A stretch of DNA of 30,532 bases. It comes from an uncultured Lachnospiraceae bacterium. Lineage in GTDB: Bacteria > Bacillota_A > Clostridia > Lachnospirales > Lachnospiraceae. Location: positions 1 to 30,532 of the forward strand of contig CANOBT010000060.1 of the NCBI GenBank assembly GCA_947564305.1, given 5' to 3'. Both the position numbers and the translations under genes were made by a program. The stretch's first letter is position 1. Each line of letters opens with the position of its first letter. Shown here one piece after another: positions 1 to 19,287 of the stretch. The notes beneath the pieces are model-generated. The model made no database searches, was not told the origin of the DNA, and saw only the letters and a program-made list of their open reading frames with translations.

Positions 1-168
1 TTTGTAGAGAAAAAAATTGCACTTGCAAAATATGAATACCAGCAGAGCAAAGGGGCTTTTACCCTATATTTTTATAACCTTACAGATGATGAGAAATCGG
101 ACCTTATCCCTAAAAATTATGAGACGGGAAGTGGTACGCAACTGGAATTAGAAGATATTTGGGGATAA
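1..168 (+). CDS. C-terminal end of an unidentified protein (5' end outside window)
   Basis: An open frame enters from the left edge and stops with TAA at 166-168, giving 55 residues that end in LELEDIWG. The segment is hydrophilic, rich in Lys, Glu and Tyr, and has no membrane segment or motif that I recognise. The stop is followed within 20 bases by a terminator-like hairpin, which supports it being the true end of a plus-strand gene. The function cannot be judged from this fragment. Confidence 0.6.
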   Translation, partial: FVEKKIALAKYEYQQSKGAFTLYFYNLTDDEKSDLIPKNYETGSGTQLELEDIWG

Positions 169-1553: not shown

Positions 1554-2575
1554 TGATACCCTTTTCTTCGCCTTTTTACTTTTTATTCGTTTTTTTGCTC
1601 TTTTCCTACAAAATGATACCTTTTTCTTCGCCTGTTTTTAACAATAAAATGCCGACCATTATAGTCAATATGGAGTTTGGCAAAAGCATAATGCAGAATA
1701 CATATTTTTGATGCTAATTATTTCGCCGATTTTACCTCTTTTTCCATTTTTGTACTTTTTTTTACAAAATGATACCTTTTTTTTCGCTCTTTTCATTGTC
1801 TCCGCCGCATTAACCCACTCGGTCAACTGCAATATTTATTATACAGAACTTTTTTTGATACCACTTTTTTCGCCTTTTATTTATTATTCATTACACAAGT
1901 ACCTAATCGACAATTTTTGATTCCTTTTTCTTCGCTTTTTTTACTATTTTTTTCAATAATTGTTTAGGCTGATGTCCTGACAATATAACTTTATATCCAA
2001 TTCTTGCAAAAATGATACCTTTTTTTTCGCCTTTTTATTAATAATGAGTGGAAGTCTATTATTTAAGAGAAAATGATACCTTTTTTTTCGCCTTTTTCTC
2101 AAGCATCATTTTTTTGTATTCATCAAATAGCTTTATAACATATTTTCCTGTATTAGAAATCGTAATATGATACTTTTTTTTTCGCCATGTAGCGTTTTTT
2201 ATGTTGTTTTCTTCGCCAAATCACATAAAAAAATAAAATGAAACCAGTAATTTCGCCGTTTTTTTCAGAAACAAGATGATAATAAAAAAATTTTTACGCC
2301 AAAAATTACTCTTCGTCTCATTTTATTGTATTTTTGATACCTCTTCATTCGCCTTTTTTATGTTAAAACCTTAAATTTGAGAATATTTAACCTTTTGATA
2401 CCTTTTTATTCGACCAAAAAAGATCAAAAAAATTTTTTTGTCCTATATTTCTTTCGGGAACCCCCTCGATTTCTTTATTTTCGGAAAATGATGCCTTTTT
2501 ATTCGCCAATTAAATATCCTTCATAAACTGCTGTAATATCATGCTTTTTCAAAAATTGATACTCTTTTTTTCGCC
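1554..2575 (+). repeat. Iteron-like array: 19-bp direct repeats in seven pairs, probable replication origin
   Basis: Copies of a 19-bp unit (consensus TGATACCTTTTTTTTCGCC) start at 1554, 1614, 1709, 1770, 1856, 1918, 2013, 2074, 2168, 2239, 2335, 2396, 2489 and 2557, all in the same orientation. A half-copy ending in TTCGCC lies at 2199-2217. The two ends (TGATACC and TTCGCC) are conserved and the middle is a T-tract. Start-to-start distances alternate between about 61 and about 94 bp, so pairs recur roughly every 155 bp. The spacers between copies differ in sequence. The array ends about 12 bp before the promoter of the putative initiator gene. This is how iterons bound by a plasmid Rep protein are usually placed, although typical iterons are contiguous or about 21-22 bp apart. 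Confidence 0.8.
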
Positions 2576-2587
2576 TTTTCGCCATGA

Positions 2588-2616
2588 TTTACATTTCTGC
2601 CAAAACATTCTATAAT
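2588..2616 (+). promoter_or_regulatory. Promoter of the putative initiator gene
   Basis: TTTACA (2588-2593), a 17-bp spacer, and TATAAT (2611-2616). It begins 12 bases after the last 19-bp repeat, so a protein bound to the array could repress its own transcription. The predicted transcript start near 2622 leaves about an 80-base leader before the TTG start at 2703. Confidence 0.7.
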
Positions 2617-2702: not shown

Positions 2703-3920
2703 TTGGAACTGAACAGCTATGCACGCATTGGTAAAGCGGTTATTACAAAAGCAATCGGACTTCAGAAAAATTATAAAGAAGTCTATGAAAAATCTGAAGA
2801 TAAACTGAACGAAGAGAAGTCCGGATGCCATAATTGTGAAGTATGCAAATTAAAGTGCCGTTTTTCCGCATTAGGAGTTACAGAGGTCTGCGATGCGCTG
2901 AATGAGCAGTGCCGGACATGCTCCCAGGCTGTGTGGGAAAGTACTTACACTACACATACCAAGTATATCAATGAGAAAAACCGTTATGGCTACCAGCCGA
3001 CACTTAAGGTGAACGCCATCAAGCTTTTTATTACATATCATTTCCTACAGCCTGATACACTTGGTTTCATAAAGAACGTAAGTGTAAAGGAACTTGCTGA
3101 GCTTCTCGACTGCACTCCTGCTACGATCCGTTCCAGTAACGAAATCCTAAGTTCCTATGAATATTGCTACTTTTGCAATTCCGGTATTTCTGATAACCAT
3201 ATCAATGTATACATACCGGAATATAAAAATTATCATAAGCCGGCAAGCGAGGGTGGACGGGGATATCTCAGTCTGTCAAGCAATATGCTCTCCGAACTGC
3301 TGGCTGTCGATCATCTAAATACGCTCCGCCTTACAATAAAGGGGATCCTTGAAGTGGATAACGCCTCTGCTTATGATGCTGCAAATCCAAATTTAACAGA
3401 TGTTACCTCTACATTTGACAAATTACGCGGTTTTCTCCCATCATATTGTAAACGCAATGTAATCCGCAAAGCATTGGAACAGGGCAATGCCATTTTCCAG
3501 TATTCTTTCTCAGACAGTTCTGTAACTTTCAGTATGAAGCAGGAATACGCTAAGAAGAATATGCGTAAGGCTATGCTTTTGGAAAGCGAGCAGGAAGTTA
3601 AAAATCATGTTGATTCTCTCAATGATGTGCTGGAACTTGCAAATGATAAAGAGTCTTACGCTGATCCTGAACGCACGCAGGCTCTTTTAACCATGTTCTC
3701 CATTGGTTCATTCCACCGGTACCCGTCATTGATCCTGACTAATGATGATTACCGTGATCTGGCATCCATGTGCATCCAGTATAACATGAACATGGTAAAA
3801 CAGGCAATCTCGTGTGTATATAATGACTACATAGCAAAGCGCAGGCCAGTGGAATCTTTTGGAGCCCTGACCCGCCATTATATCCGCAATATGTCCGTAT
3901 TTAATATTTTCGCTTCATAG
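2703..3920 (+). CDS. Putative replication initiator (Cys-rich, winged-helix protein)
   Basis: The 405-residue protein has no family name that I can assign with certainty. The start is taken as TTG at 2703 because AAAGGAG lies 7 bases upstream; a longer frame from 2622 begins at the predicted transcription start and has no ribosome site. Residues 42-52 hold C-x2-C-x2-C-x3-C (Cys42, 45, 48, 52), followed by Cys63, 70 and 73, a zinc or iron-sulphur type cluster. A helix-turn-helix follows around residues 125-150 (VSVKELAELLDCTPATIRSS), and the C-terminal half is helical and basic. The gene sits directly downstream of the long iteron-like array and upstream of further repeats, so a Rep role is inferred from position plus the DNA-binding domain. 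A transcriptional regulator is the main alternative. Confidence 0.55.
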   Translation: MELNSYARIGKAVITKAIGLQKNYKEVYEKSEDKLNEEKSGCHNCEVCKLKCRFSALGVTEVCDALNEQCRTCSQAVWESTYTTHTKYINEKNRYGYQPTLKVNAIKLFITYHFLQPDTLGFIKNVSVKELAELLDCTPATIRSSNEILSSYEYCYFCNSGISDNHINVYIPEYKNYHKPASEGGRGYLSLSSNMLSELLAVDHLNTLRLTIKGILEVDNASAYDAANPNLTDVTSTFDKLRGFLPSYCKRNVIRKALEQGNAIFQYSFSDSSVTFSMKQEYAKKNMRKAMLLESEQEVKNHVDSLNDVLELANDKESYADPERTQALLTMFSIGSFHRYPSLILTNDDYRDLASMCIQYNMNMVKQAISCVYNDYIAKRRPVESFGALTRHYIRNMSVFNIFAS

Positions 3921-3946
3921 AGGGCTTTTTTGTTGTGCCCTTTTTT
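3921..3946 (+). terminator. Possible terminator after the putative initiator gene
   Basis: AGGGC (3921-3925) pairs with GCCCT (3937-3941) around an 11-base T-rich loop and runs into TTTTTT. The stem is only 5 bp, so it is a weak candidate. Confidence 0.45.
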
Positions 3947-3970
3947 CCTTTTTTCTATATTTTCTCTGTT

Positions 3971-4116
3971 TTTTCATCATTATTTTCCATATTTTTCCAT
4001 ATTTTTATCTGTCTAACCGGAAAAAAGTTTTCCACTCTTCAAAAGTTTTCATCCACATTACATTTCTTTTCATCCTTTATTGCTAAGTTTTCATCCATTT
4101 CAAAAATAATTCATCT
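3971..4116 (+). repeat. Second repeat cluster, TTTTCATCC at 21-bp steps
   Basis: Exact TTTTCATCC occurs at 4046, 4067 and 4088, exactly 21 bp apart; the first and third share the longer form AGTTTTCATCCA. Weaker versions occur at 3971 (TTTTCATCA), 4028 (TTTTCCACT) and 4108 (AATTCATCT), and TTTTCTTCC occurs at 4150. A 21-bp step is two helical turns, as in classical plasmid iterons. The region is strongly biased to T and C, so some of this may be low complexity. Confidence 0.5.
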
Positions 4117-4383
4117 ACAAATATGATGTTTTAACCCCCTGGTTGTGGATTTTCTTCCACTTTTTTCTAACCGTTTCCCTATATATTTCCGGTATTCATT
4201 GATTTTACTGGGGTTTTGGAACATCCTTTTACCAATTACTGTTTTAATATCTGTATAATATCTGTTCTAATATATGATAAAGAATGAATAAGATGACAGC
4301 CTCTTCCATCCATTTTTATCTATCCATATGATGAAAGAAAACCAAAGACAACTATATTATATATTCGTTTTGTATTAAATACA
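4117..4383. other. AT-rich gap between the origin region and dnaE
   Basis: No gene can be supported. A TTGTGGATT segment at 4143-4151 is only loosely similar to a DnaA box. The stretch could belong to the origin as an AT-rich unwinding zone, but nothing in it proves this. Confidence 0.4.
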
Positions 4384-4419
4384 ACAAAAAAATACGGGAG
4401 CTGTCAACCAACCCCCGTA
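4384..4419 (-). terminator. Terminator of the dnaE transcript
   Basis: On the minus strand TACGGG and CCCGTA form a stem with a 15-base loop followed by TTTTTTTGTTG, 12-48 bases after the dnaE stop. This closes the replisome block on its downstream side. Confidence 0.75.
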
Positions 4420-4431
4420 CATACTATTAAA

Positions 4432-7400
4432 TTATCTAAGTCTTACATTTTCCTGCCCCAATAAATCGCATAAAGAATTCCATGATTCCTCATTAACCAA
4501 AAGACGGGTTGTATCCAGACATTTCACCTGCCTTGTATTTCTCAGGTAAATCTTTATCTGAACATCACCGATATACCTTGGATAAAGCTGCTCCAGTTTA
4601 TGGTTAAGTTTTTCGTACTCCTGAATATTAGAAAACTGAAGCCATATTTCGGAAATGGAAGCATTTATCGGTGTCATTTTTTCAAAGATAAGTGTTGCAT
4701 TCTTATCATCCTCATTCTTTACAGTTCCGGTAAAAAAAACTTTTTCCCCTTCTTTCATCTTTTCGCAGTAATCATCGTACTTTTGCGGAAAGACAACCAC
4801 CTCTATACTGCCAACCAGATCCTCCAGTGTAATAATTGCCATTTTCTTTTTCTGACGAGTCTGTTTTTCAGTTATTGAGGATATTATCCCGCCTACTGTG
4901 ACCGTTTTCCCGTCTTTCAGAACACAGCTCTCTTCCGTCTGCTGAAAATCGGTGCTTTTAGCCGTTACACCGGACATCCATTGCAGGTAAAGTTCATCCA
5001 AAGGATGCCCGCTCAGGTAAATGCCGAGAACCTCTTTTTCGTCCGCAAGCAGTGTTAAGAGCGGAAACTCTTCTTCCTGTACGGTTTTTTTTGCTGCAAA
5101 CAGGCTGAATAACGGGGTCTGGCCTGCCATTCCATTCTTTTTTTCATAGCTGATCCTGTTTAAAATTTCGGGATACTGTTCCATCATATACTTTCTTGTG
5201 TGTCCAAAGCAATCCATAGCCCCGGATTTGATCAATGCCTCTATGGTTCTTTTGTTGAAGGTACTGTAGCAATTCATGCGTGAAATAAAATCTTTCATGT
5301 CCTGGAACGATTTTTTTGAACGTTCCCCACAAAGGTCTGAAACGCAGTTATCGCCTACATCACGGATAGATGCCAGAGAGTAAATAATTGCATTTTGCCG
5401 AACCGTAAAATCCAAATTTCCGCAATTGACATCGGGCTTTGTTATGGGAATTGACAGCTGCCGGCTTAAAAGAAGGTACTCTGCAGTCTTTCCTGTATCA
5501 CTCCTTACGGAACTCATCAGTGCGGCAAGAAACTCTGCCGGGTAATAATATTTCAGGTAAGCCGTCTGGTATGCAACTACGGCATAAGTCGTTGCATGGG
5601 ACTTATTGAAGGCGTATTTGGCAAAATCAATCATCTGGTCAAAAATTCTGTTTGCTGCATCTTCCGGGATACCGTTGCTGATGCAGCCTTTAACATGCTC
5701 ATTGCCGGAAAGGAATACCTTCCTTTCATCCTCCATGACCTTGCTTTTTTTCTTTGACATTGCGCGCCTTACCAGGTCGGCCCGGCCGTAATTATAGCCG
5801 GCCAGCGCCCTTACAATCTGCATTACCTGTTCCTGATAAATGATGCACCCGTAAGTAGGGTCGAGAATTTCCTTTAATTGAGGAATCTCGTAGGTGATGC
5901 TTGCCGGATCTGCTTTTCCGCTGATATATTTGGGGATAAAATCCATAGGTCCCGGACGGTAAAGCGATATTCCGGCAATCAGGTCTTCCAGATTTTGTGG
6001 CTTTAATTGGCGCATAAAGCTTTTCATGCCACTGCTTTCCAGCTGAAAAATACCGTCTGTCTGTCCTGTGCTGATATACTGGAAAACAGAGGGATCCTGG
6101 TAATCAAACGTAACCTCGGCATTATAATTCTGTTTTATTGCGTCCCTTGCCTTTTGTATGACTGTCAATGTCCGCAGGCCCAGAAAGTCCATTTTTAACA
6201 GACCGAGTTCTTCCAAAGTGGTCATGACAAACTGCGTTGTCAATGCTCCTTCACTGGAGAGGCAGACAGGTACGAAAGATGAAACTTCTTTCGGGCAGAT
6301 AACAACACCCGCTGCATGCGTAGATGTATGCCGCGGCAGTCCTTCAAGGCATTTTGAGATATCAATCAGCTTCCGTATGGCATCGCTGCTTTCATATTTT
6401 TTCTTAAGTTCCGGCACATCTGTAAGGGCGCTGTCAAGCGTGGTTTTTGCATCCGTTGGAATAAGCTGGCTAATCTGGGAAACCGTTGAAGCCGGTATCC
6501 CGAGTACACGTCCAACATCCCGTATTACGCCTTTAGCGGCAAGAGTACCGAAGGTAACAATTTGTGCAACCTGATCCTTGCCATATTTTGACACAACATA
6601 GTCAATAACTTCGTGGCGCCGTTCATAGCAGAAGTCGATATCAATATCAGGCATCGTTACACGCTCCGGATTAAGGAAACGTTCAAAAAGCAGGTTGTAT
6701 TTCTTGGGATCAACCTCCGTAATTTTCAAACAGTAAGCAACAAGGCTGCCAGCAGCGGAGCCGCGTCCGGGACCGACCGGTATGCCGTTTTCTTTGGCAT
6801 AATTGATAAAATCCCATGTAATCAGGAAATAATCGACGAATCCCATCTTTTTTATTGTGTTAAGCTCATAAGAAAGTCTGTCCTCATGTTCTTTATAACA
6901 ATCGGGGTAGCGCTCCATCAGTCCGTCTCTGCACAGTTTGTTTAAATATTCCCACGAATCATATCCCTTTGGCGTTTCAAACTGCGGCAAGTGATAATGG
7001 TTAAAAGTAAATTCAACCTGACAACGGTTCGCTATTTTTTCCGTGTTTTCCAAAGCTTCCGGCATTTCAGGAAAGAGCTGGTACATTTCTTCAGGTGACT
7101 TTACATAGAACTGGTCTCCTTCGTAACGCAAGCGGTCTTTGTCTGTCAGCAGTTTTTTTGTCTGTATGCACAAAAGGACATCGTGTGCCTCGGCATCCTC
7201 TTTCCTTGTATAATGTACATCATTTGTGGCGACAAGAGGAATATCCAGCTCTTCATGCATCCGCACCAGCAGCTGATTGACTTTCTTTTGTTCGGGAATT
7301 CCGTGGTCCTGCAGTTCTAAGAAATAATTATCCCTGCCAAAAAGCGACTGGTAGAGCATTGCGGTTTCACAGGCTCCTTTGTAATTGCCCTGTGAGAGCT

Positions 7401-7833
7401 TTTTGGGCACTTCTCCGGCGAGGCAGCCGCTCAGCGCGATTAAACCCTTATGATGGGCAGAAAGCGCCTTAAAATCGATTCTGGGGCGGTAATAAAAACC
7501 GTCTGTAAAGCCGAGCGATACCAGCTTGATAAGGCTCTGATAGCCTTCATTATTTTCGGCAAGCAGTACAAGGTGATAATAACCGCGGTCGTTTTTGTTT
7601 GACATGGAATCCTGGGCGACATATACTTCGCACCCGATGACCGGATGAATCCCGGCTTCCTTTGCGCATTTGTAGAAATCCACAACTCCATACATTACCC
7701 CGTGATCCGTGATGGCTGCGCTTTTCATTCCAAGCTCTTTAACGCGTTTTATGTATTCGGAAATTTTGTTTGATCCGTCCAGCAGACTGTAAGGCGTATG
7801 GGAATGCAGATGTGCAAATGATATTTGATTCAT
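4432..7833 (-). CDS. dnaE: DNA polymerase III alpha subunit (DnaE type)
   Basis: The 1133-residue product is a full-length C-family replicative polymerase. It starts with a PHP domain (HLHSHTPYSLLDG at residues 8-20, then AITDHG), contains GPGRGSAAGSLVAYCL in the polymerase core, and carries the catalytic aspartates in PDIDIDF (residues 395-401). Helix-hairpin-helix and OB-fold regions follow, the OB-fold at about 970-1045. It lacks the internal exonuclease domain of PolC, so it is DnaE. AAAAGGAGGAAC gives a strong ribosome site for ATG 7833. It is last in the minus-strand replisome block, behind dnaX and a HolB-like gene. Low-GC Firmicute chromosomes already encode DnaE and PolC, so this is presumably an element-borne extra copy that lets the element copy itself or escape host control. 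Confidence 0.95.
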   Translation of the reverse strand: MNQISFAHLHSHTPYSLLDGSNKISEYIKRVKELGMKSAAITDHGVMYGVVDFYKCAKEAGIHPVIGCEVYVAQDSMSNKNDRGYYHLVLLAENNEGYQSLIKLVSLGFTDGFYYRPRIDFKALSAHHKGLIALSGCLAGEVPKKLSQGNYKGACETAMLYQSLFGRDNYFLELQDHGIPEQKKVNQLLVRMHEELDIPLVATNDVHYTRKEDAEAHDVLLCIQTKKLLTDKDRLRYEGDQFYVKSPEEMYQLFPEMPEALENTEKIANRCQVEFTFNHYHLPQFETPKGYDSWEYLNKLCRDGLMERYPDCYKEHEDRLSYELNTIKKMGFVDYFLITWDFINYAKENGIPVGPGRGSAAGSLVAYCLKITEVDPKKYNLLFERFLNPERVTMPDIDIDFCYERRHEVIDYVVSKYGKDQVAQIVTFGTLAAKGVIRDVGRVLGIPASTVSQISQLIPTDAKTTLDSALTDVPELKKKYESSDAIRKLIDISKCLEGLPRHTSTHAAGVVICPKEVSSFVPVCLSSEGALTTQFVMTTLEELGLLKMDFLGLRTLTVIQKARDAIKQNYNAEVTFDYQDPSVFQYISTGQTDGIFQLESSGMKSFMRQLKPQNLEDLIAGISLYRPGPMDFIPKYISGKADPASITYEIPQLKEILDPTYGCIIYQEQVMQIVRALAGYNYGRADLVRRAMSKKKSKVMEDERKVFLSGNEHVKGCISNGIPEDAANRIFDQMIDFAKYAFNKSHATTYAVVAYQTAYLKYYYPAEFLAALMSSVRSDTGKTAEYLLLSRQLSIPITKPDVNCGNLDFTVRQNAIIYSLASIRDVGDNCVSDLCGERSKKSFQDMKDFISRMNCYSTFNKRTIEALIKSGAMDCFGHTRKYMMEQYPEILNRISYEKKNGMAGQTPLFSLFAAKKTVQEEEFPLLTLLADEKEVLGIYLSGHPLDELYLQWMSGVTAKSTDFQQTEESCVLKDGKTVTVGGIISSITEKQTRQKKKMAIITLEDLVGSIEVVVFPQKYDDYCEKMKEGEKVFFTGTVKNEDDKNATLIFEKMTPINASISEIWLQFSNIQEYEKLNHKLEQLYPRYIGDVQIKIYLRNTRQVKCLDTTRLLVNEESWNSLCDLLGQENVRLR

Positions 7834-7844
7834 ATGTTCCTCCT

Positions 7845-7877
7845 TTTAAAAAGGCAGATGCCACTTATGGCACCTGC
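7845..7877 (-). terminator. Terminator-like hairpin directly in front of the dnaE ribosome site
   Basis: On the minus strand GCAGGTGCCA (7877-7868) pairs with TGGCATCTGC (7863-7854), one G-U pair and a 4-base loop, and is followed by CTTTTT. The T-run merges into the AAAAGGAGG ribosome site of dnaE. It may end the upstream transcript or attenuate dnaE. Confidence 0.65.
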
Positions 7878-7905
7878 AGTACTGGTTTGTGTTTTTGCAA
7901 TTCTG

Positions 7906-8152
7906 TCAGGAATACAGAGTAACAGAATTGCCAAGGTAAATGACCTGTATCATGGAAAGCTCCGTGTATACAGATAAGTATTTTTTTAGTATCAGAAATA
8001 CAGGATAAAGCGTTGTTTCGTAAGAAAAAGCCCCTGTTTTTCTGCAGCAGTTTATCGCCGCGGAAAACAAAGGGCTATCCAGATGCCGTTCAAGGCAATG
8101 CTTCAGATACCATTCCTCTATTATATTTGGTTTATAGATTGCAGGGAGATAT
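7906..8152 (-). other. Open frame continuing past the dnaX stop in the +1 frame
   Basis: After the dnaX stop at 8153, the frame one base ahead stays open for about 82 codons to TGA at 7906. It uses ordinary-looking codons and reads like protein (KYDPKYLPAIYKPNI near the beginning, YLGNSVTLYS at the end). A terminator-like hairpin follows. I find no ATG with a ribosome site at its own beginning; the nearest candidate is TTG 8205 inside dnaX, behind GAGAGG. It may be a small coupled gene, the product of a +1 frameshift extending DnaX, or the remainder of a dnaX tail after an indel at TTTAAAA. Confidence 0.4.
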
Positions 8153-9586
8153 TTAGGGTCGTATTTTAAACAGATCGGAAGCTGGCGTGGAGCCGGAGCT
8201 TCCAATCTCCTCTCCGTCCGGCTCTTCCGGTCTGTCTGATTGCATCCCTCCTTCCCGATCCCCTTCTTTCCGGTAGTTTTCAGCATATACAGAATATAAT
8301 TCCTCGTCTGTAAACCGCTGGATTCCGGAAGATGTTTCAAAAGGTACGTCATACTGATCCGCCGTGTGGAACTGTCCTCCGGCTTGAGGCGCTGCCCGTG
8401 AACGGGAATTGTCTGCAGGTTGGGCGCTCATTAGTTTTCTGACCGTAGATTTAAGTTCTGCCAGTTCCTGCTCCAGTTTCCGGATGGTTGCTGACATAAC
8501 TGCAGGATCGCTGTCTGTAAGCTCATGGTTGCTCATTTTTATAAGGGCGAGCTTGATATCCATGATGGGATTTGCGCTGCCCCTTATGGAGCCCCGCAAA
8601 TCGCAGCACTGTTCACACAGCCAGTAAAGACGTTCAAAGGTCATGCCGTTGCCAATTTCTAAGGCAGATTGCACATAGTCTTTGCTGTGCAGCACGGACT
8701 CTGGCTGTCCAGTGGTTTTGATGGTAATGATATCCATTAAAGCGGACAATATGGATTCTGTTATCAAGGCGGGCGATTTACCCTGCCCTGTCAATTCATC
8801 CAGACAGTTGAGGGCGGATTGGGTGTCATAAGCAGATATTGCAGACAATGCTGTTAAAATGCGGTCGCTGTCCAATGAACCTAGTCTTTTTTTTGCAGCC
8901 TCGGTCGTGATATTGTTATCGGTGCTTGTCAAGAGCTGCTCCAATATGCCCAAAGCATCACGTAACCCTCCATTGGCATTCCGTATAATGAGGTTCAGCG
9001 CGTCTTCTTCGCAAACTGCATTCTGTTCTTTCAGCACTTCTTTTAAACGCTCCCTCATAGGTTCCGGCGCGATTGGATGGAAAACATATTCTTCGCACCG
9101 GCTCCGTATTGTAACCGGTATTTTATGCAGTTCCGTTGTACAGAGGACAAATACACAGTACGACGGGGGTTCCTCCAATGGTTTTAACAGCGTGTCGAAG
9201 GCTGCTGTTGACAGGTTGTGAACCTCGTCTATGATAAATACTTTTCTCTTAAGCTGGACGGGACGGTATTTTGTCTGTGCCAGCATTTCCTTTATTTTGT
9301 CAACTCCGTTGTTCGAGGCGGCATCCAGTTCCAGCACATCAAGGCTTGTGCCGTATGCAAGGCAGTTAGGGCATTGCCCGCAGGGACCGTCTTCTGTCGG
9401 GTGTTCACAGTTTACAGCCTTTGAAAGAATTCGCGCTATTGTCGTTTTGCCGGTGCCTCTATGACCGGCGAAGAGATACGCATGGCCGAATTTCTGGGAG
9501 AAAGACTGCTTTTTTAATGTAATAAGCACGTCCTCCTGCCCCTTGACCTCGGTAAAGTCTTTCGGGCGGTATAAATTATATAGCAT
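8153..9586 (-). CDS. dnaX: DNA polymerase III clamp-loader subunit tau/gamma
   Basis: The 477-residue product is a clamp-loader AAA+ ATPase. It has the YRPKDFTEVKGQ start, Walker A GHRGTGKT (41-48), the zinc-binding cysteines typical of DnaX (60, 69, 72, 75), Walker B DEVH (120-123) and the arginine-finger SRC (162-164). The start at 9586 follows AAAGGAGGAACCTA; a longer frame from 9613 has no such site. After about residue 360 there is a Ser/Pro/Glu-rich linker and then an early stop, so the length lies between a gamma form and a full tau. The polymerase-binding tail expected of tau is not obvious in this frame, but an open +1 frame continues beyond the stop. The gene lies between the HolB-like and DnaE genes, so these three probably act as one replicase. 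Confidence 0.92.
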   Translation of the reverse strand: MLYNLYRPKDFTEVKGQEDVLITLKKQSFSQKFGHAYLFAGHRGTGKTTIARILSKAVNCEHPTEDGPCGQCPNCLAYGTSLDVLELDAASNNGVDKIKEMLAQTKYRPVQLKRKVFIIDEVHNLSTAAFDTLLKPLEEPPSYCVFVLCTTELHKIPVTIRSRCEEYVFHPIAPEPMRERLKEVLKEQNAVCEEDALNLIIRNANGGLRDALGILEQLLTSTDNNITTEAAKKRLGSLDSDRILTALSAISAYDTQSALNCLDELTGQGKSPALITESILSALMDIITIKTTGQPESVLHSKDYVQSALEIGNGMTFERLYWLCEQCCDLRGSIRGSANPIMDIKLALIKMSNHELTDSDPAVMSATIRKLEQELAELKSTVRKLMSAQPADNSRSRAAPQAGGQFHTADQYDVPFETSSGIQRFTDEELYSVYAENYRKEGDREGGMQSDRPEEPDGEEIGSSGSTPASDLFKIRP

Positions 9587-9626
9587 TAGGTTCCTCCTTT
9601 TATTGTGGTTCATCCGACACAGGATG

Positions 9627-10553
9627 CTATGGCTCTTTTACCATACAGCGTATCAGATCGAAAAAATCGTTTTTGGAATAGCTGCTGTTTTGCCATTGCT
9701 TCTGATGGGCTGACAGTCGGGAACAGATCTGATAAATATGCGGTAAGGAATAAAGCTCGCTAAGGCTCTTAAAGTCCATGCTGTTTTCCGCCTTTGAAAT
9801 CATCAGTTTTTGCAGCAACAGCTGTTCAAACAGGTAATAAAACATCTGCAGCGCCACCCAATAATGTGCCGAATGTACTTCGTAGAAATTTTCAGGGTCT
9901 TTCTCCCGGATCAGATGGAGTATTTGAAATAATTCTTCTTTTTTCCGGGCCAGCATAAGGTTTTTGCAAGTTTCCAGTAATGCGGGATAGCAATCACCCA
10001 TATTTTCAATGGCATGGGGGCAAAAGTCACACAGATAAGCAGCAAACAGTAATTCTTCCCGAGCGATACCCTTTTCCAAGAAGTATGGTGATATCTCTTC
10101 TACGGATAAGGGATCGAATGAAATAATATTGCAGCGGCTTTTTATTGTTTCAAGCAAAGCATCCTGGTTACAGAGAAAAATAAGGACATTTGTGTGGCTC
10201 TTGTCTTCCAGTAATTTCAACAGCTTATTTTGTGCCTGGACGTTCATGTTTTCCGCATTGCACACCAAAAAAAACTTTTTTCCTTTTAACGCGGCAAGGG
10301 AACTCTTATCAAGGAGAGCAAGTACATCCTCTACCTTTATGGTATCCTGTTGCCTGTCAAGAAGGAAAAAGTCGGGGTTTTTATACAGTTCATCACTGCC
10401 ACATCCCATAAGCTGTGCAATGACATCCATTGCTGCCTGCCGCTTACCAAGCCCCCGTTTCCCCAGTAATATGAGGGGACCGGGATTCTGGGACATGGCA
10501 TAAGAATTAAGGTTAAGGAATGCTTCATCATTTCCTATAAAAGTTTTATCCAT
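9627..10553 (-). CDS. holB: DNA polymerase III delta-prime subunit (HolB-like clamp loader)
   Basis: The 308-residue product has the AAA+ delta-prime pattern: IGNDEA at the start, a Walker-A-like GKRGLGKR (31-38) with Arg where Thr/Ser is usual, NAENMNVQAQNKLLKLLED (98-116) and SRC (138-140). The altered P-loop suggests weak or no ATP hydrolysis, as for delta-prime in other bacteria. ATG 10553 was chosen because AAAGGAG lies 10 bases upstream and because it overlaps the stop of the preceding OB/HD gene by 8 bp, indicating coupled translation. The C-terminal third is divergent from chromosomal HolB. Together with DnaX it would load a sliding clamp; no clamp gene is present here. Confidence 0.82.
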   Translation of the reverse strand: MDKTFIGNDEAFLNLNSYAMSQNPGPLILLGKRGLGKRQAAMDVIAQLMGCGSDELYKNPDFFLLDRQQDTIKVEDVLALLDKSSLAALKGKKFFLVCNAENMNVQAQNKLLKLLEDKSHTNVLIFLCNQDALLETIKSRCNIISFDPLSVEEISPYFLEKGIAREELLFAAYLCDFCPHAIENMGDCYPALLETCKNLMLARKKEELFQILHLIREKDPENFYEVHSAHYWVALQMFYYLFEQLLLQKLMISKAENSMDFKSLSELYSLPHIYQICSRLSAHQKQWQNSSYSKNDFFDLIRCMVKEP

Positions 10554-11532
10554 TATCCGTATGCTCCTTTTGTATGTATATATAATTATTAAGCGCGGGA
10601 TCAAATACTGAACCGCACTTGTCCTGATTGCTGAATAAAAAGTATTCAAGCCTGGAAACATCGCCCTGAAGCTGAATGGCATTTTTTAAAATAATAGCCT
10701 CACGAATCATTGGTTTCCTGTCGGTACTCTCATATACGCAGCCGATTGTATGCATCAAAAGGCTTTCTTCCTCTTCTGTCAGATTAAATCCGTTATTTTG
10801 CGAGAGCATCCGGCATAGATACTGTATCGTAAGTTCATGCAGGTTCAACGGGATTGATTCCGGGATGCGTTTCATTTCCGGAAACGGCTTTAACATGTTG
10901 ACGGTTCCGATTGCGTGAAGCAGCCCTCCGGCAATAACAAGATCGCTGTTGTAGGGCAAGGAATAAGATGGGTTTAAATTGTATTTTTCCAGTGAATAAG
11001 CCATGTATTTTGCAAGACATGTGACGCTCACACTGTATACCAAAAGCCCTCCGTTAAAGTTGTGATGCCCTTTCAAGGTTGCAGGGAGTATTTCAAAATC
11101 AGGAATACTTGTAAAGATATGATGTAAGAGATTACGGTAATTTTGTGACTTGACGGCTCCGATGTATTTATGGAGTAATTCCAAGTAGCTTTTTGTGTCC
11201 TTCTCAGATATGCCATTAACGTAATCTGAATACAGGTATTCATCCAAAAGCGCCATATGGGTTATTATCAATTGATAAGATGCATCCTGGTTCTGAACTA
11301 CCATTCCGTTAATCTGTACCACTTTTCCCACATAGCTTTCATATTCCGCTTCCATGTATTCTTCCCATATTGTGCCAAAAATTGTGCCGGTAGAATCCTG
11401 AAGCAAGACTTCTAAATATCTTTTTTTACTCTCACTTGTTTGTTTTTCAGCAATATTTCTTACATAAAAAGACGTTTCAATTGTCTTGGTAAAAAAATCA
11501 GATATTCCTGAAATATAGATGTTCTTTGGCAT
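10546..11532 (-). CDS. YhaM-like OB-fold/HD-domain protein with a degenerate HD site
   Basis: The 328-residue product has an OB-fold-like N-terminal part (about 15-95, including YLEVLLQDSTGTIFGTIW) and an HD-type domain (about 150-290), the order seen in the 3'-5' exonuclease YhaM. The signature positions diverge: GHHNFNGGLLVYS (155-167) where the family has a GGLLEHT-type segment, and LLHAIG (204-209) where LLHDIGK is expected. Loss of the metal-binding Asp suggests an inactive nuclease or a binding role. ATG 11532 follows AAAGGAGGAACCT. It is coupled to holB, so a replication or primer-handling role is inferred. The match to YhaM is recognised by pattern and was not searched. Confidence 0.7.
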   Translation of the reverse strand: MPKNIYISGISDFFTKTIETSFYVRNIAEKQTSESKKRYLEVLLQDSTGTIFGTIWEEYMEAEYESYVGKVVQINGMVVQNQDASYQLIITHMALLDEYLYSDYVNGISEKDTKSYLELLHKYIGAVKSQNYRNLLHHIFTSIPDFEILPATLKGHHNFNGGLLVYSVSVTCLAKYMAYSLEKYNLNPSYSLPYNSDLVIAGGLLHAIGTVNMLKPFPEMKRIPESIPLNLHELTIQYLCRMLSQNNGFNLTEEEESLLMHTIGCVYESTDRKPMIREAIILKNAIQLQGDVSRLEYFLFSNQDKCGSVFDPALNNYIYIQKEHTDNG

Positions 11533-11547
11533 AGGTTCCTCCTTTTG

Positions 11548-13137
11548 TTAAACTGCCCTTTTTATGACAGCGCTGCTCGACAGCTCGTTTAGAAGCTGCT
11601 TATAATATTTCTCAATAAGCCTGTTCAGTTCCTCTGATTCAGGATAGGCATATGTAAGGGTGGGCTCTAATAAAGAGCTTTTTACCTTAAGAATCCGGTT
11701 GAAGTATATCTCTCCGCATCTTGCAAAAATTTCCGCCCGGCGGAAAAAATACTTTAAATTATACTTGCTGGAACCTTTCAGTTTTTTTGTTACTGCAGGA
11801 TCAAGATTCTGCATTCCCCTTAAGAATTCTGCCTTATATGCCTTTACAATGGCATCAAAGTCTACCTCAAGGGATAAATCGCCAAGCTGCTCATCCAGCA
11901 TATGGAAATGTTCGTGTATGAACGAAGACGGGGTCTGTATGTCCACGCATAGATTGCGTATACTCGGATAGTACAGACCGCTTGCCTTGTGTTTCCCAAG
12001 TTTCCGGAAACGCAATGTTACTTCCATGAAGCTGGAACCGGAAAAATACTGCTTGTTGATTGCCTTGTACTCCTCTTCTATTTTTCTGACTGCATCTAAG
12101 TCTACATCTTCATCGAATTCTACATACCCAAAATAGTTATGGAAGCCGGAGCTATCCATTGCCTTCTGGATAGATATAGGTATATTCTTTTTGGTGATGT
12201 ATGCTGTTGCAATCTTCTTGTGAAGGGATTCCCTGTGCTGGAATTCATTTTGCACATCCTGGAATACATCAGCAACCTGATAAAACAGGTAAACCAGCTT
12301 AGAGTAAAGAGTATAATCGGGGCTGTAGTAATAAGACGGAAGGTGTCCGTCCTGCCTGTTAATTCTTCTGAACAGGAACTCCAACGGTACGGCTTCCTTA
12401 TCATTAAGAAATCGGATTAATGGAGTAGAGAGTGTGTGATCGTTGATGTCAACATTAAGCTCATTCAGCTCCTTTGAAAAAATATTTGATATTAATGGGG
12501 AGATATCTTCCGAAATAATTGAGTAAAGACAATTACATACAGACATATGTGCCAAAAAATCAATGACATTACTAATTCCTATGTTGTAATTCGGGTTACT
12601 CCTCATATGATAAAATCCCATTTTCCTTTTTGAAGTGGAGCCGATGCCTCCGTAGAATTCAATTTTTTCAGATCCTATTAACTCTACCCTTAATATATGG
12701 CTTGTTTTCAGCGTTGCCGCTGCAATTTCTGCGCCACCATGTTCTTCAGGATTGGGGAAAGAAAAGGATAATTTATCCTTATATATTCCTGCAAGATTAG
12801 ATAAAAAAGGGATTCCCTGAACAGCCAGAGAATCCTCGTTCTTAATTTTGCATAGTTTTGCCTGAATGAATTTTCCTATGACCTTAATGATGTTGTCATA
12901 GTGTGATGCAGAGTAATAATCAACCATAGGGAAAGGCAGGTTCAGGAAACTGTGCATGTTCAATTTTGGGAGCATAGCTTTATAAGTGCTTTCCCTTTTA
13001 AGGCTGATTATACGGTTGCCTTTGAGAAAATCAGTATTCCCTGAGAATGATTCTGAAGCCGGCATTCCTGGTGGAAAGTATACACCCATTTGATAAAGTA
13101 TTTCGTCAGTAATTGGCTGACTTTGTTTTTTCTTCAT
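11548..13137 (-). CDS. Unidentified protein with an HExxH zinc-metallopeptidase motif
   Basis: The 529-residue product has no full-length family that I recognise. Its C-terminal third contains SFIHEHFHMLDEQLG, an HExxH motif (His408, Glu409, His412). It is followed about 60 residues later by RRAEIFARCGEIYF, which resembles the EMFAR-type helix supplying a further ligand in zincin domains of large polyvalent proteins on mobile elements. The N-terminal 400 residues are mixed alpha/beta with no clear motif. ATG 13137 follows AAAGGAGGATTTAAA. It sits inside the replisome block, 15 bases before the OB/HD gene. The substrate is unknown; processing of a replication or partition protein, or defence against host factors, are possibilities. 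Zincin assignment is moderately secure; function is open. Confidence 0.6.
   Translation of the reverse strand: MKKKQSQPITDEILYQMGVYFPPGMPASESFSGNTDFLKGNRIISLKRESTYKAMLPKLNMHSFLNLPFPMVDYYSASHYDNIIKVIGKFIQAKLCKIKNEDSLAVQGIPFLSNLAGIYKDKLSFSFPNPEEHGGAEIAAATLKTSHILRVELIGSEKIEFYGGIGSTSKRKMGFYHMRSNPNYNIGISNVIDFLAHMSVCNCLYSIISEDISPLISNIFSKELNELNVDINDHTLSTPLIRFLNDKEAVPLEFLFRRINRQDGHLPSYYYSPDYTLYSKLVYLFYQVADVFQDVQNEFQHRESLHKKIATAYITKKNIPISIQKAMDSSGFHNYFGYVEFDEDVDLDAVRKIEEEYKAINKQYFSGSSFMEVTLRFRKLGKHKASGLYYPSIRNLCVDIQTPSSFIHEHFHMLDEQLGDLSLEVDFDAIVKAYKAEFLRGMQNLDPAVTKKLKGSSKYNLKYFFRRAEIFARCGEIYFNRILKVKSSLLEPTLTYAYPESEELNRLIEKYYKQLLNELSSSAVIKRAV
11731..11745. repeat. Palindrome copy 1 (C-centred), inside the metallopeptidase-like gene
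   Basis: TTCCGCCCGGCGGAA, identical to the two copies at 13339 and 13378. On the coding strand it encodes the FRRAE residues next to the EIFAR motif, so here the palindrome is also under protein constraint. Confidence 0.7.
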
Positions 13138-13182
13138 TTTAAATCCTCCTTTTATTAAAGATAGCCGCTGAATATACACGGC

Positions 13183-13211
13183 AAAATAAAAAAGGACATC
13201 AAAGATGTCCT
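13183..13211 (-). terminator. Terminator between the primase-like and metallopeptidase-like genes
   Basis: On the minus strand AGGACATC-TTT-GATGTCCT is an 8-bp perfect stem followed by TTTTTTATTTTG. It lies 46-74 bases upstream of the start at 13137, so it either ends the primase-like transcript or attenuates the downstream replisome genes. Confidence 0.75.
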
Positions 13212-13338
13212 CATAATAGTGAATAAGACCTACTGCTAGGAATTAAGTAAACGGACTGCGTGCTGCAGAACCATAAATAAAAAATGTTTTATACAGTATA
13301 ACAAATCAAAGGCGGCATGACAAGAAAAAAGTCAAAAA

Positions 13339-13392
13339 TTCCGCCCGGCGGAAAAATTGAGAGGTTCACATGGAAAATTCCGCCCGGCGGAA
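13339..13392. repeat. Palindrome copies 2 and 3 (C-centred)
   Basis: TTCCGCCCGGCGGAA occurs at 13339-13353 and 13378-13392, 39 bp apart, each with A/T flanks. They lie just past the end of the primase-like gene. The 7-bp arms flank a single central C. Candidate binding sites for ParB or another dimeric protein. Confidence 0.75.
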
Positions 13393-13424
13393 TTTTTAAA
13401 AAATAATACAGGCATATAGCAAAA

Positions 13425-14654
13425 CTATACACCTGTATTTTCCTTGACCAATTCGTAATTCGGACGGATATTGATTGAAAGTATATCGTCCAACCCTTTA
13501 CCAAAGCCCGGATTCCAAAAAGCGACTCCTATATGGAAGTCCTGCAAAGACAGGAATTCTATGATTTTGTCTTCATACATCAGGACAGACTGATTAATAT
13601 ACTTGTCAGAATCATATGCAATAATCAGTATCCGGCAGCCGCGCGATTTTAGGTAATCCAGTACAGTAAAACCGTTTTCAGATTGCTCCAACAATTTGCT
13701 AAATGAGTTTACCCCGGGAATTGATATCACGGGAATGCGGAGAATGTGGTTGGCATAGATAGCCTTTTTTTCTCCTTCCGTAATATAGCAGACCGTGTAA
13801 TCATCATGTGCTGGATTGTCGTACAATCCGATATGGCTTCCTGAACGGCAGCCGTTTATATATGCGTTTGCCAATGCGCCGGTTGTCGTTTTGGTTTCAA
13901 AGTAAGAAGAAAAATTATTGTACTTGTTCTTTTCCTTTCCTGAATCATCAACCTGTGGATGATCCAGGCGTATCCTGAGTCTGTATAGGCAGTGGTTGTG
14001 ATCGTATAGCGGAATTAAAATGCCGGATGTGCCGGAAAAAGTCCATTTTCCGTCTTGCTTTTGATAAAAACCGGGTACGCCTTTTAAGGAGCTGAATTCA
14101 TGGATCAGTTCCAGTGCAATACGTTCCCTGTCATATGCGTTGTAATGGGAACTGTTGTTTACCGGAAGGGAGCGCAGCATGGAACGCTGTATCAGTTCTA
14201 TCGGCCAGCCTTCCTTTGCCAGATATCGTACATGCATCTTGTTTAAGTGCAGATGCTTTAAAAAAGAGCGGTATATAAGGTCGAGTTCATGGTTTGGCTT
14301 TGCCGGAACTGATAAAGTGTCATCAGCCATGCGGTTTTTGGACTGATCCGAAGGAATCTGCTTCGGACGTTCCTTTCGCGGGTGCCGCTGATTGTATCCG
14401 CTGTTCTGAAGCAGCCACTCGTCACGGTCGGCATCATATAGTTCGCGGTCTTTATACAGACAGGAACCGTCAGTTGTTTGTTTGATATAGACGTATTCCC
14501 TGTTGTTTACCGGACTTATAATGTCTATGCCTGAAAGAATTCTTCGGCAGTAGTAGAGCTGCGTGGACGGACTTGCTTCCTGAATGGAGCACCAGTCGGG
14601 TTTTCCGCAGATTGGGCAAGGTTCTCTTTTGGAGACGTTTCGAAAATTTGACAT
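13425..14654 (-). CDS. Zinc-finger/Toprim primase-like protein (DUF3854 type)
   Basis: The 409-residue product begins with a zinc-finger-like set, CPICGKPDWC then YYC (Cys13, 16, 22, 36), as in the CHC2 finger of primases. The C-terminal half carries a Toprim-type domain: CYITEGEKKAIYAN (acidic Glu293), VISIPGVNSF, and IIAYDSDKYIN (Asp348, Asp350), then a GKGLDDIL segment near the end. This is the arrangement of DUF3854 proteins on plasmids and integrative elements. The likely role is primer synthesis or DNA processing at the element's origin. ATG 14654 follows AAAGGAGG. It is the first gene of the minus-strand block, transcribed from the divergent region shared with parA. Confidence 0.78.
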   Translation of the reverse strand: MSNFRNVSKREPCPICGKPDWCSIQEASPSTQLYYCRRILSGIDIISPVNNREYVYIKQTTDGSCLYKDRELYDADRDEWLLQNSGYNQRHPRKERPKQIPSDQSKNRMADDTLSVPAKPNHELDLIYRSFLKHLHLNKMHVRYLAKEGWPIELIQRSMLRSLPVNNSSHYNAYDRERIALELIHEFSSLKGVPGFYQKQDGKWTFSGTSGILIPLYDHNHCLYRLRIRLDHPQVDDSGKEKNKYNNFSSYFETKTTTGALANAYINGCRSGSHIGLYDNPAHDDYTVCYITEGEKKAIYANHILRIPVISIPGVNSFSKLLEQSENGFTVLDYLKSRGCRILIIAYDSDKYINQSVLMYEDKIIEFLSLQDFHIGVAFWNPGFGKGLDDILSINIRPNYELVKENTGV

Positions 14655-15147: not shown

Positions 15148-16170
15148 ATGTCAGAGAAAACTTGGAAAGAAAAAATGGAGGCTCTGCTAAAACAGAAGAA
15201 GTGGGATATGAAAGACTGGCATAGGGCATTGGGGCTGAATCAGTGGCAGCTGGAGAACCTGATGGCTATGGATACGACGCAGTTGGATCCGGAAAGCCTT
15301 CAGAATATCTATGATGACACAAAGGCAGCAAAATTAGACAAGAAGATGATGAGGTTCGAATCGCCGGTTATAATTGTTGTATGGACACATAAGGGAGGGA
15401 CGGGAAAATCTACAACAGCAATGAATATGTCGTATGAGCTTTCGCGGAGAGGTTATAACGTGCTTGGCATCGACATTGACAGCCAATCGGACATGTCGAG
15501 TGTCCTTTATCCCAATTATCTCGAACAGCCCGATGTCAGCTTCTATGAGGCTTTCTCCATGCATGACGACTTTATGGAACCGGGATATATAAGGCATACC
15601 GAGTATGTGAATTTAGATATTATACCGGGTTCGGCTAAGTGCGAAGGACTGGAAGGGCAGCTTGGTGTACTGGATCAAAACATAAGAGGCCGTATATGGG
15701 AAAAATGTCTGAGAACCATACGGAAGGACAACTACTATGATTTTATATTTGTAGATATGGATAAAACGGCGGGGCTTATGAACGTTGCAGCGCTGGCAGA
15801 GGCTGATTTTGTATTGTCTCCTCTGGAACCTGCTATTTTTGCAGTGAAAGCCGTTCCACCGGTTTTGGCCCAGGTGGAGGAAGTGCGCAAGAATAATCCC
15901 AAACTGAAAATTTTGGGGTTTCTGTACAATAAAGTGGATATGCGTAAAAAGAGATCTTTGCCCGAATCCCTCGAGCTGGTGGAGGAGATAGCACCGGGGC
16001 TTGCCTTCAAGAGTTTCATAAAAAACGATGCCAATATTGATAATTCGCAGCGTGAACATTATCCGCTAGGGGTTTACAATAGAAGCTGTGCAGCAAACAA
16101 ACAGATGATAGAAGTTGCAGATGAATTGCTGGAGAAGGTTAAGGAAAAATCAGATAAGGTGGTGAAGTAA
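15148..16170 (+). CDS. parA: ParA-family partition ATPase
   Basis: The 340-residue product is a deviant-Walker ATPase: KGGTGKST (82-89), IDIDSQSDMS for the A' region, and YDFIFVDMDKT at the Walker B position. About 70 residues precede the ATPase domain and look like a helical DNA-binding or regulatory module, as in ParA proteins that repress their own operon. The Walker B region reads DMDKT where ParA proteins usually have a D-x-P-P type sequence. ATG 15148 follows AGGAAGGAG. The gene runs directly into parB with no gap (TAA then ATG). It would drive segregation of the element together with ParB and a centromere, for which the flanking palindromes are the best candidates. Confidence 0.9.
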   Translation: MSEKTWKEKMEALLKQKKWDMKDWHRALGLNQWQLENLMAMDTTQLDPESLQNIYDDTKAAKLDKKMMRFESPVIIVVWTHKGGTGKSTTAMNMSYELSRRGYNVLGIDIDSQSDMSSVLYPNYLEQPDVSFYEAFSMHDDFMEPGYIRHTEYVNLDIIPGSAKCEGLEGQLGVLDQNIRGRIWEKCLRTIRKDNYYDFIFVDMDKTAGLMNVAALAEADFVLSPLEPAIFAVKAVPPVLAQVEEVRKNNPKLKILGFLYNKVDMRKKRSLPESLELVEEIAPGLAFKSFIKNDANIDNSQREHYPLGVYNRSCAANKQMIEVADELLEKVKEKSDKVVK

Positions 16171-17115
16171 ATGGCTGGCAAAAAAGGTAGTGTAGATAAT
16201 GCCGCATTCTTAAGGCAGGTATCCGCAAATGCACAATCCGCTACACAGGATGTTTCAAAGACGATGGAAAAAATAGGCCTGGGTGAGATTGCGGAAAAGG
16301 GAAAAAAGAAGTTAACTCATGTTGACGTTTATAAAATGGTGGATGCTCCGGAAGAATGGAATAAATATCCGAGATTGAAAGATAACCAGGTAGAGAAATA
16401 TCTTGAACTAAAGATGTCGATTTATGAAAAAGGTATCGAGGATCCTCCTATTTTGTGGGAAAGATCAGACGGTAAATATATGATACTGGCCGGACATAAC
16501 AGGCGTGATATCAGCTGTGAAATCATACAGGAATGCCGTGAGGAACCGGGGTTTGAGGAGGAAAAGTATCGCTATCCGGCCTGCATCGTATATGCGGCGG
16601 ACGAACTGAGTGAGGAACAGGCTAGAGGAATTATAGATGATACAAACCTTTACCGGGACTTTTCAAAACTTCCGCAGAAAGTGAAAATAGAAATTATCAA
16701 ATCGAGAATGGATGTTTACAAAAGAAGGCGGTACAGCAAAGGCGAAAGGATAGATCAGCTTGCAAAGGAGCTGGGTATCAAGAAAACGGCAATTTATGAA
16801 AACCTGTCGATCAGTGAGAACGTCTATGCACCATTACAGGAACTGTACTATGATGGGAAACTGAAGAGAAAAGCGATATTAAAGTTTACATACTTTGATG
16901 GAGACACCCAGCAGTGGATATATGAAAATTTCAAGGATCGGATAACAGAGGCAAAGGTGAATGCACTAAAAAAGAATATGAACCGGGATGCTATCGCAAA
17001 CGTATTTAATGCGGAAGCACAGGGTATTAAGAAGCTGACTGTAGAGATTCCTGCAGACCGTGTAGAGGAATTCAGGGGAATGCTTGAAGAGTGGTTGATA
17101 AAGGTTGGAAAATAA
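16171..17115 (+). CDS. parB: ParB-family centromere-binding protein
   Basis: The 314-residue product has a ParB/Spo0J N-terminal domain (about 60-165) including EKGIEDPPILW and AGHNRRD (107-113), the counterpart of the GERRxxA nucleotide-binding box. A helix-turn-helix follows at about 191-212 (GERIDQLAKELGIKKTAIY), and the C-terminal part is probably for dimerisation. The first 50 residues are a flexible, Lys/Ala-rich region likely to contact ParA. The start ATG abuts the parA stop, so both come from one mRNA. A hairpin terminator follows 25 bases later. It probably binds the 15-bp palindromes upstream of the operon, although that is inferred from position. Confidence 0.9.
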   Translation: MAGKKGSVDNAAFLRQVSANAQSATQDVSKTMEKIGLGEIAEKGKKKLTHVDVYKMVDAPEEWNKYPRLKDNQVEKYLELKMSIYEKGIEDPPILWERSDGKYMILAGHNRRDISCEIIQECREEPGFEEEKYRYPACIVYAADELSEEQARGIIDDTNLYRDFSKLPQKVKIEIIKSRMDVYKRRRYSKGERIDQLAKELGIKKTAIYENLSISENVYAPLQELYYDGKLKRKAILKFTYFDGDTQQWIYENFKDRITEAKVNALKKNMNRDAIANVFNAEAQGIKKLTVEIPADRVEEFRGMLEEWLIKVGK

Positions 17116-18671: not shown

Positions 18672-18693
18672 AAAAGTCAAAGGAGTGATTGCT

Positions 18694-19287
18694 GTGCAGG
18701 CTAAGGATACAATAAATTTATTATTAGAAAATTCCCCAAGCGGAACAATTACTGCAAAACAGGTGACAGAATGTGGGGTACATCGAAGTGTGTTGCAAGA
18801 GCTTGTAGAGACGGGAGATTTATATCGTTATGGGCGGGGGCTCTATATACGAAGTGATACATGGGAAGATGACTTTTATCTGCTTCAATGTAAATATGGA
18901 CGAGGGATTTATTCCCATGATACATCATTGTATTTACTCGGATATTCAGATAGGACGCCGGCGAAATATACAATGACGTTTCCTAAAGGATATAATGCCC
19001 CTTCTCTGAAGCAGGAAAGTATCATAATCAGACGCGTTATACCAGATAATTATTCATTTGGAATTATTGAAATAAAATCACCAAGCGGAAATCCCATCAT
19101 GATATATGATCTTGAAAGGACGTTGTGCGATATTGTGCGTGGAAGTGGCAGCGATATTCAAGTTGTAAATGAAGCAATGAAGCGATACGCAGCTTCTAAG
19201 GAAAAAAATATTCATAAACTGATGAAGTATGCCGAACAGTTACGTGTGGGACCCAAGATACTGCGTTATATGGAGGTATTGTTGTGA
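18694..19287 (+). CDS. abiEi: AbiEi-family antitoxin (type IV toxin-antitoxin)
   Basis: The 197-residue product has an N-terminal winged helix (ITAKQVTECGVHRSVLQELVETGDLYRYGRGLYI is the typical segment, about residues 20-53) and the C-terminal AbiEi domain with YSHDTSLYLLGYSDRTP and MIYDLERTLCDIVR. GTG 18694 is taken as the start because AAAGGAG lies 8 bases upstream; the GTG at 18685 lies inside that ribosome site. AbiEi proteins neutralise the nucleotidyltransferase AbiEii and repress their own promoter. The gene overlaps the toxin gene by 4 bp. Confidence 0.9.
   Translation: MQAKDTINLLLENSPSGTITAKQVTECGVHRSVLQELVETGDLYRYGRGLYIRSDTWEDDFYLLQCKYGRGIYSHDTSLYLLGYSDRTPAKYTMTFPKGYNAPSLKQESIIIRRVIPDNYSFGIIEIKSPSGNPIMIYDLERTLCDIVRGSGSDIQVVNEAMKRYAASKEKNIHKLMKYAEQLRVGPKILRYMEVLL

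Follow-up and report, generated by a model that had tools for sequence, protein, structure and literature searches.

Between the end of a gene that we call X and a gene for a 405-aa protein, a 30,532-nucleotide stretch of DNA from an uncultured Lachnospiraceae bacterium (contig CANOBT010000060.1, positions 1 to 30,532, all of it referred to here as the window) carries an array of fourteen bipartite 19-bp sites in one orientation and in conserved positions. The same layout, built from other site sequences, recurs on other large Firmicutes plasmids, and this recurrence suggests a form of plasmid replication control that we have not seen described; our searches of open-access literature text brought up no description of this array. 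Judged from its sequence, the array is very probably a replication-control iteron region, whichever protein binds it. That X is the binder we regard as an even call, a confidence that we lowered because the lineages compared were found partly through X itself. The module appears to consist of X, the helically phased array, a second gene for an initiator-like protein, and a gap in which DnaA-box-like and AT-rich sequences occur.

The copies of TGATACC-N7-TCGCC lie on the plus strand of the window between 1554 and 2575 and form seven pairs: 1554-1572 and 1614-1632; 1709-1727 and 1770-1788; 1856-1874 and 1918-1936; 2013-2031 and 2074-2092, both of them perfect TGATACCTTTTTTTTCGCC; 2168-2186 and 2239-2257; 2335-2353 and 2396-2414; and 2489-2507 and 2557-2575. 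Steps inside pairs 1 to 7 are 60, 61, 62, 61, 71, 61, and 68 bp, and steps from each pair to the next are 95, 86, 95, 94, 96, and 93 bp, which gives a pair period of 147 to 167 bp. The fourteen copies, their orientation, their pairing, their coordinates, and their steps are all as the original prediction had them. Six matches between 1500 and 2650 are exact, 12 have at most one mismatch, and 14 have at most two; at this last level, dinucleotide-shuffled versions (n = 300) contained 0.03 matches on average and never more than 1. The minus strand of the whole window holds no match with two mismatches or fewer, and a trained matrix called no reverse-strand site in the array region; it did yield a weak fifteenth site at 2199-2217, which divides the 71-bp step of pair 5 into 31 and 40 bp. 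A T-tract had been placed at the center of each copy; most copies have one, and those at 1709 and 2239 have the half-sites without it. Of 16 matches to the 19-mer with up to three mismatches in the 5.49-Mb, 309-contig genome to which the window belongs, 12 are in the array (a reversed-pattern control gave 8 matches). The array is not included in the TRF list of tandem repeats, and inverted repeats within its region are short or imperfect only.

Close relatives keep the positions of the sites more faithfully than the DNA between them. A TGATACC-type array stands upstream of the 405-aa gene in 10 of 12 loci on genome contigs (L014 to L022 and L024); L025 has an array of different sequence, and L023 has none. 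In the eight loci that we scored with one matrix, the gene-proximal sites hold their places at about -146, -214, -307, -368, -464, -504, and -535 from the gene start, and the farther loci do so though their 405-family proteins are just 52 to 56% identical. The 31 + 40 split of pair 5 is kept in L016, L017, L018, L020, L021, and L022 and is 31 + 41 in L024. Compared with the window, sites are 78% identical and spacers 62% in L022 (shuffled spacers, 60%), 77% and 55% in L024 (shuffled, 54%), and 86% and 65% in L017 (shuffled, 59%); L016, with spacers 94% identical, is not informative here. Peaks of the conservation profile coincide with the sites, and the spacers of L022 and L024 stand at the shuffled level, so that the proposal of conserved position without conserved spacer sequence is borne out. 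The proposed super-period of about 155 bp, in turn, is found in the window's clade and partly in its nearest relatives and is not found in other lineages. The array of L024 reaches 19 sites over up to 1.45 kb, and contigs of 113 and 114 kb carry relatives whose 405-aa genes are 98 to 100% identical. One metagenome-assembled genome (G332) holds two contigs, L016 and L020, whose modules differ (TGATACCT.. and TGATACCAT..); these may be compatible coresident plasmids or may reflect a binning mix.

Distant 405-family genes, on complete plasmids, one phage-plasmid, and contig L025, have upstream arrays of other sequence: GTAGA..GGAGTAA in E. eligens, TTGTCT..TCCGTTCT in Aneurinibacillus, TTTCTCC..TTCGTG in Virgibacillus, TTTTTACG..CGCACTT in Paenibacillus thiaminolyticus, TTGGTAAC..CCGTAC in Exiguobacterium, GACCGTAT..TCCGTACTT in a C. 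difficile phage-plasmid, and TAGTCCG..TTGTGCG in the F. orotica contig L025. When the whole fetched locus was scanned de novo for bipartite words, the highest-ranking cluster fell immediately upstream of the 405-family gene in 8 of 10 lineages. The top cluster of pCd5_2 (L013), in its whole plasmid as well, is a run of eight 48-bp tandem repeats (1437-1780) 4 to 5 kb before its 405-family gene, and L023 shows no cluster within the scanned 17 kb of its contig. A search with X gave 28 plasmid records, and the five lineages found through X (P. polymyxa pSC2, Niallia pMEGANia, Pontibacillus, Alkalihalophilus, and P. megaterium pFDU301A) all have a cluster filling the interval from X to the next open reading frame (ORF), the sole stretch scanned in them. 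No reverse-strand site was called in the eight array-bearing lineages found through the 405-aa protein; one was called in L179, which counts against our reading. The array beside X on pFDU301A (L183) has 32 called sites, mostly at alternating steps of 31 and 33 bp.

Helical phasing is supported by the comparison across lineages. In eight lineages, the 66 steps no longer than 120 bp have their best period at 10.68 bp (R = 0.55), a value of R that none of 3,000 jittered sets reached, and without the window the best period is 10.54. With the period of 10.54 and the phase fixed beforehand, the five later lineages fit (n = 69 steps; 0 of 5,000 null sets), as they do without L183 (n = 39) and without L182 too (n = 29), again with 0 of 5,000 null sets each; twelve lineages pooled peak at 10.66. 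Within the window, steps tested over 10 to 11 bp are phased better than jittered controls (P = 0.0035), but the fourteen copies alone have their best period over 8 to 14 bp at 8.45 rather than about 10.5, and the 68-bp step of pair 7 is about half a turn off. It is for this reason that the case for phasing draws on the cross-lineage comparison, and the suggestion that all sites share one DNA face holds only roughly in the window itself.

The array accompanies X. The window encodes the C-terminal 55 residues of X, a protein of about 480 aa (1-168, plus strand; tblastn to the X of L018 to L024 and a profile match); the rest lies outside it, and an X without internal stops is present in the same genome at C230:24723-26165. 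Copies of X, of about 470 to 530 aa, lie upstream of the array and are related across all 12 loci compared, as well as in the window's own genome. X occurs in all eight array-bearing lineages found via the 405-aa protein and in neither of the array-less ones, being absent from the genome of L023 and from pCd5_2; on the tree, which carries long-branch warnings, these two lie apart, each near array-bearing relatives. In Pontibacillus the ORF after X and the array is a relative of the 405-aa protein (E about 1e-60). In P. polymyxa, Niallia, Alkalihalophilus, and P. megaterium the ORF after X has no detectable relationship to it (best E 0.06; hhalign probability at most 1.4%), and tblastn with two 405 queries found no 405-family gene anywhere in these four records. 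The array is thus found with X in 13 of 13 array-bearing lineages and with the 405-aa family in 9 of 13, and for the association of X and array, pooled with the five X-found lineages, Fisher's test gives P = 0.0095. Six of eight X relatives are similar to Pfam RPA ("Replication initiator protein A," PF10134) at E 1 or better, over just about residues 213 to 378 of X, and the source names for X are "RepB family plasmid replication initiator protein" and "replication initiator protein A," the latter in agreement with this weak similarity. PHROG 13905 and 13763, families with no assigned function, hold a 405-aa relative and an X relative of C. difficile phage-plasmids.

A number of observations weigh against X as the binder. 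The pooled Fisher value is biased because the 405-aa protein was the route to eight lineages and X the route to the other five, and the match of X and array within the first ten lineages (8 + 2) is 1 in 45 by count, with no correction for kinship. The curated RPA cut-off is reached by one of the eight X relatives; P0134, which is the copy nearest the window's clade and is 99% identical to the X of L016, scores 17.7 bits against an RPA cut-off of 27; direct scans under stricter limits gave no RPA match for the X of L022, L025, L010, L011, L012, L179, or L182; and no solved structural relative of X was found. X is inverted in Aneurinibacillus, and the 405-family gene points in the direction of the array in all nine lineages that have it. 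It is the 405-aa protein, not X, that has the predicted fold of known iteron binders, and it is likewise the 405-aa gene, not X, to which a fixed promoter offset belongs in the window's relatives. Furthermore, the genes that follow the array in the other four lineages may be homologous to the 405-aa gene but too diverged to detect.

The principal alternative is that the 405-aa protein (2703-3920, plus strand, TTG start) is itself the iteron binder, a RepE/pi-like initiator of which each winged helix would read one half-site, with X as an accessory; we consider this possible, if rather doubtful. Co-occurrence favors X, and fold, direction, and adjacency favor the 405-aa protein. The latter is predicted to have tandem winged helices (about residues 3 to 286), followed by a helical C-terminal region of no clear known fold, and cysteines 42, 45, 70, and 73 are invariant in 85 sequences of a family with 151 database relatives, 120 of them listed, that few genomes contain (1 of 61 and 1 of 295). 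Foldseek by itself produced nothing at E 0.001 or better (its best match had 1.1e-3), Pfam nothing above a curated cut-off (two helix-turn-helix matches were subthreshold), and NCBIfam nothing at E 0.01. An initiator beside the repeats had been predicted, and the predicted fold of the 405-aa protein agrees with this. Its further role as the binder has become doubtful because the array follows X rather than the 405-aa gene: in L023 and pCd5_2 the gene is retained and no such array is seen, an outcome that had been named beforehand as refuting, and the four plasmids named above have a phased array and no detectable 405-family gene.

That the array solely regulates transcription of the 405-aa gene, with no direct part in replication, is improbable, even though a promoter-like TTTACA-N17-TATAAT (2588-2616, plus strand) precedes the gene and its -35 hexamer lies at a fixed offset, 31 bp from the point where the last site begins, in all eight loci examined (the window, L016, L017, L018, L020, L021, L022, and L024; spacer of 17 bp in seven of them, 18 in L021). 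Up to 1.45 kb and 19 sites in L024, or 32 sites in L183, is much for one promoter, and the array stays where the downstream gene is a different one. An inverted-repeat operator at the promoter does not rise above shuffles in the window (P = 0.51) and has a P of <0.05 in two of eight loci. Less probable still is a centromere, parS-like and read by a partition protein. ParA/ParB-type genes do lie on the element, and in E. eligens such genes are close to the 405-family gene, but those in the window are about 12.5 kb from the array, and across replicons the place of the par genes varies while the arrays go with X.

With X as the likeliest binder, the array would function as a set of long-range iterons. 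Each site reads as two half-sites in one orientation, their starts about 12 to 13 bp apart around a mostly AT-rich middle, and would be bound by a protein with two reading heads. Sites placed near whole helical turns would set the bound molecules roughly on one side of the DNA, where they could contact each other by looping or wrapping of the intervening stretches. Such a complex might set the frequency of replication by sensing initiator dose and holding plasmid copies together, and it might help to start replication in the gap beyond the 405-aa gene. Occupancy of the sites would probably also control expression of that gene, because the last site abuts its promoter. We tentatively extend this scheme to a device shared by large plasmids of Firmicutes, in which X on long, helically registered arrays with sites at least 29 bp apart would form one wrapped or looped complex, the geometry being kept while the site letters change with the protein, and an exchangeable second initiator would act at a separate opening site downstream.

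The candidate opening site is a noncoding gap of 511 bp (3921-4431) between the convergent 405-aa gene and dnaE. It contains the DnaA-box-like sequences TTTTCCACT (4028) and TCATCCACA (4049), TTTTCATCC at 4046, 4067, and 4088, and a conserved AT-rich block at about 4201 to 4300. The least stable 80-bp stretch lies downstream of the gene in 10 of 12 loci (that of L012 at the gap's edge) and in the window is centered near 4353, by a small margin. We fitted the GC skew of ten replicons or contigs with two segments and expressed the ori-like change point as 2d/N. This value is 0.007 in F. orotica (inside 700 bp after the gene's end), 0.010 in E. eligens, 0.046 in Aneurinibacillus, 0.080 in P. thiaminolyticus, 0.091 in pCd5_2, and 0.148, 0.154, and 0.188 in the window's clade, and the ori-like change points lie near the module across eight lineages with misses included (Fisher P = 4e-4). 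In the window's clade we followed strand-controlled third-position skew in three elements, of which two are nearly identical, and in each of the three it shifts between the 405-aa gene and dnaE: minus-strand genes left of the array have values of -0.22 to -0.31, dnaE has -0.01 to 0.00, and minus-strand genes at 11 to 16 kb have +0.18 to +0.23. At -0.06 to -0.09, the 405-aa gene is close to most of the small number of plus-strand genes on the left and unlike those on the right (+0.20 to +0.48). This pattern favors a start of replication in the gap, and skew and duplex stability together speak modestly for an opening site on the far side of the 405-aa gene, not within the array. On the opposite side of the balance are the DnaA-box-like matches, which in the window gap are one-mismatch only (5 versus 1.8 expected; P = 0.025) and in L022 and L025 are enriched upstream as well; the stability differences, which are small; the 2d/N of 0.295 in Exiguobacterium, where skew is weak, and the miss in Virgibacillus at 0.718 (change points at 63 and 220.5 kb, gene at 107.7 kb); and a skew change point 9 to 11 kb off on contigs of 113 to 147 kb that are putative circles.

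Two of these replicons have further peculiarities of skew. In Virgibacillus an FtsZ-annotated gene (L127 8115-9620; NZ_CP033050.1, 218 to 220 kb) sits at the GC-skew minimum, 112 kb from the X/405 module, and possibly marks a second, TubZ-like replicon. The 627-kb plasmid of E. eligens (L010; NC_012780.1) has a GC skew near -21% except in one stretch of about 48 kb (290.5 to 339 kb) starting near the module, which resembles the pattern of nearly unidirectional replication; such one-way-skew replicons are surveyed in PMC7858055, which names Firmicutes and in whose main text "eligens" does not occur.

The genes around the array suggest that the element is probably a large conjugative plasmid with its own DNA polymerase III genes, because coupling, Replic_Relax, Par, and polymerase III genes are all present. 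Beyond the gap, the minus strand encodes dnaE (DNA polymerase III alpha; 4432-7833), dnaX, and delta-prime-like, OB-fold, and DUF3854 proteins, the last of which we take to be primase-like, so that a large part of a replisome occupies 4432-14654. A polymerase III alpha ORF follows the gap in L018 (partial), L021, L022, and L024 too. Farther right are the ParA and ParB-like genes (15148-17115), an AbiEi/AbiEii-type pair (18685-20129), a TraG/TraD-type coupling protein, and a Replic_Relax protein. A ParE/Phd-type toxin-antitoxin pair lies at 564-1152 between X and the array, where L017 has other ORFs.

Replication control of Firmicutes megaplasmids is poorly known, and the products described here are "hypothetical protein" in nearly all of the records consulted. 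If the scheme is correct, co-oriented sites at multiples of 10.5 bp between X and a second gene are a sequence-independent signature, which could serve to locate the origins of such replicons, up to 1.44 Mb in size, for testing and for the construction of vectors for gut Lachnospiraceae. The scheme would also provide about 13 natural variants of a single geometry, differing in site sequence, in which to study how spacing is read by initiators and which site each of two initiators recognizes.

Classical iterons are closely packed, about two helical turns apart. The contrast with them that had been drawn from the window is upheld, as the shortest step among 142 from 13 lineages is 29 bp and the shortest in the window is 31 bp, sites less than 15 bp apart not being callable by construction of our site calling. 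Like F (RepE) and R6K (pi), the element has repeats of about 19 bp that share one orientation and adjoin an initiator-like gene, here in 14 to 15 copies with none reversed, and, less clearly, DnaA-box-like and AT-rich sequence nearby; an initiator with two winged-helix domains next to the repeats has its counterpart in the predicted fold of the 405-aa protein. Helical phasing matters in those systems as well: PMC4980987 reports that cooperativity was lost with half a turn between iterons. The origins that this paper names have 2 to 7 iterons, whereas the lineages described here have 6 to 32 sites each; the candidate opening region lies beyond the second gene, and a second protein, X, accompanies the array. 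Iteron chromids are placed in beta- and gammaproteobacteria in PMC6090056, whereas the hosts here are Firmicutes, and in place of the 11/12-mers and 29/39-mers given there for RctB at the origin of Vibrio cholerae chromosome 2, the window array has a single class of bipartite 19-bp site with a consensus that lacks GATC. Taken together, these comparisons suggest an array that works like iteron control, yet one that we do not file with the F/R6K type, because its sites are not closely packed, its binder is so far a candidate, and both X and the 405-aa protein lie outside the curated families by sequence.
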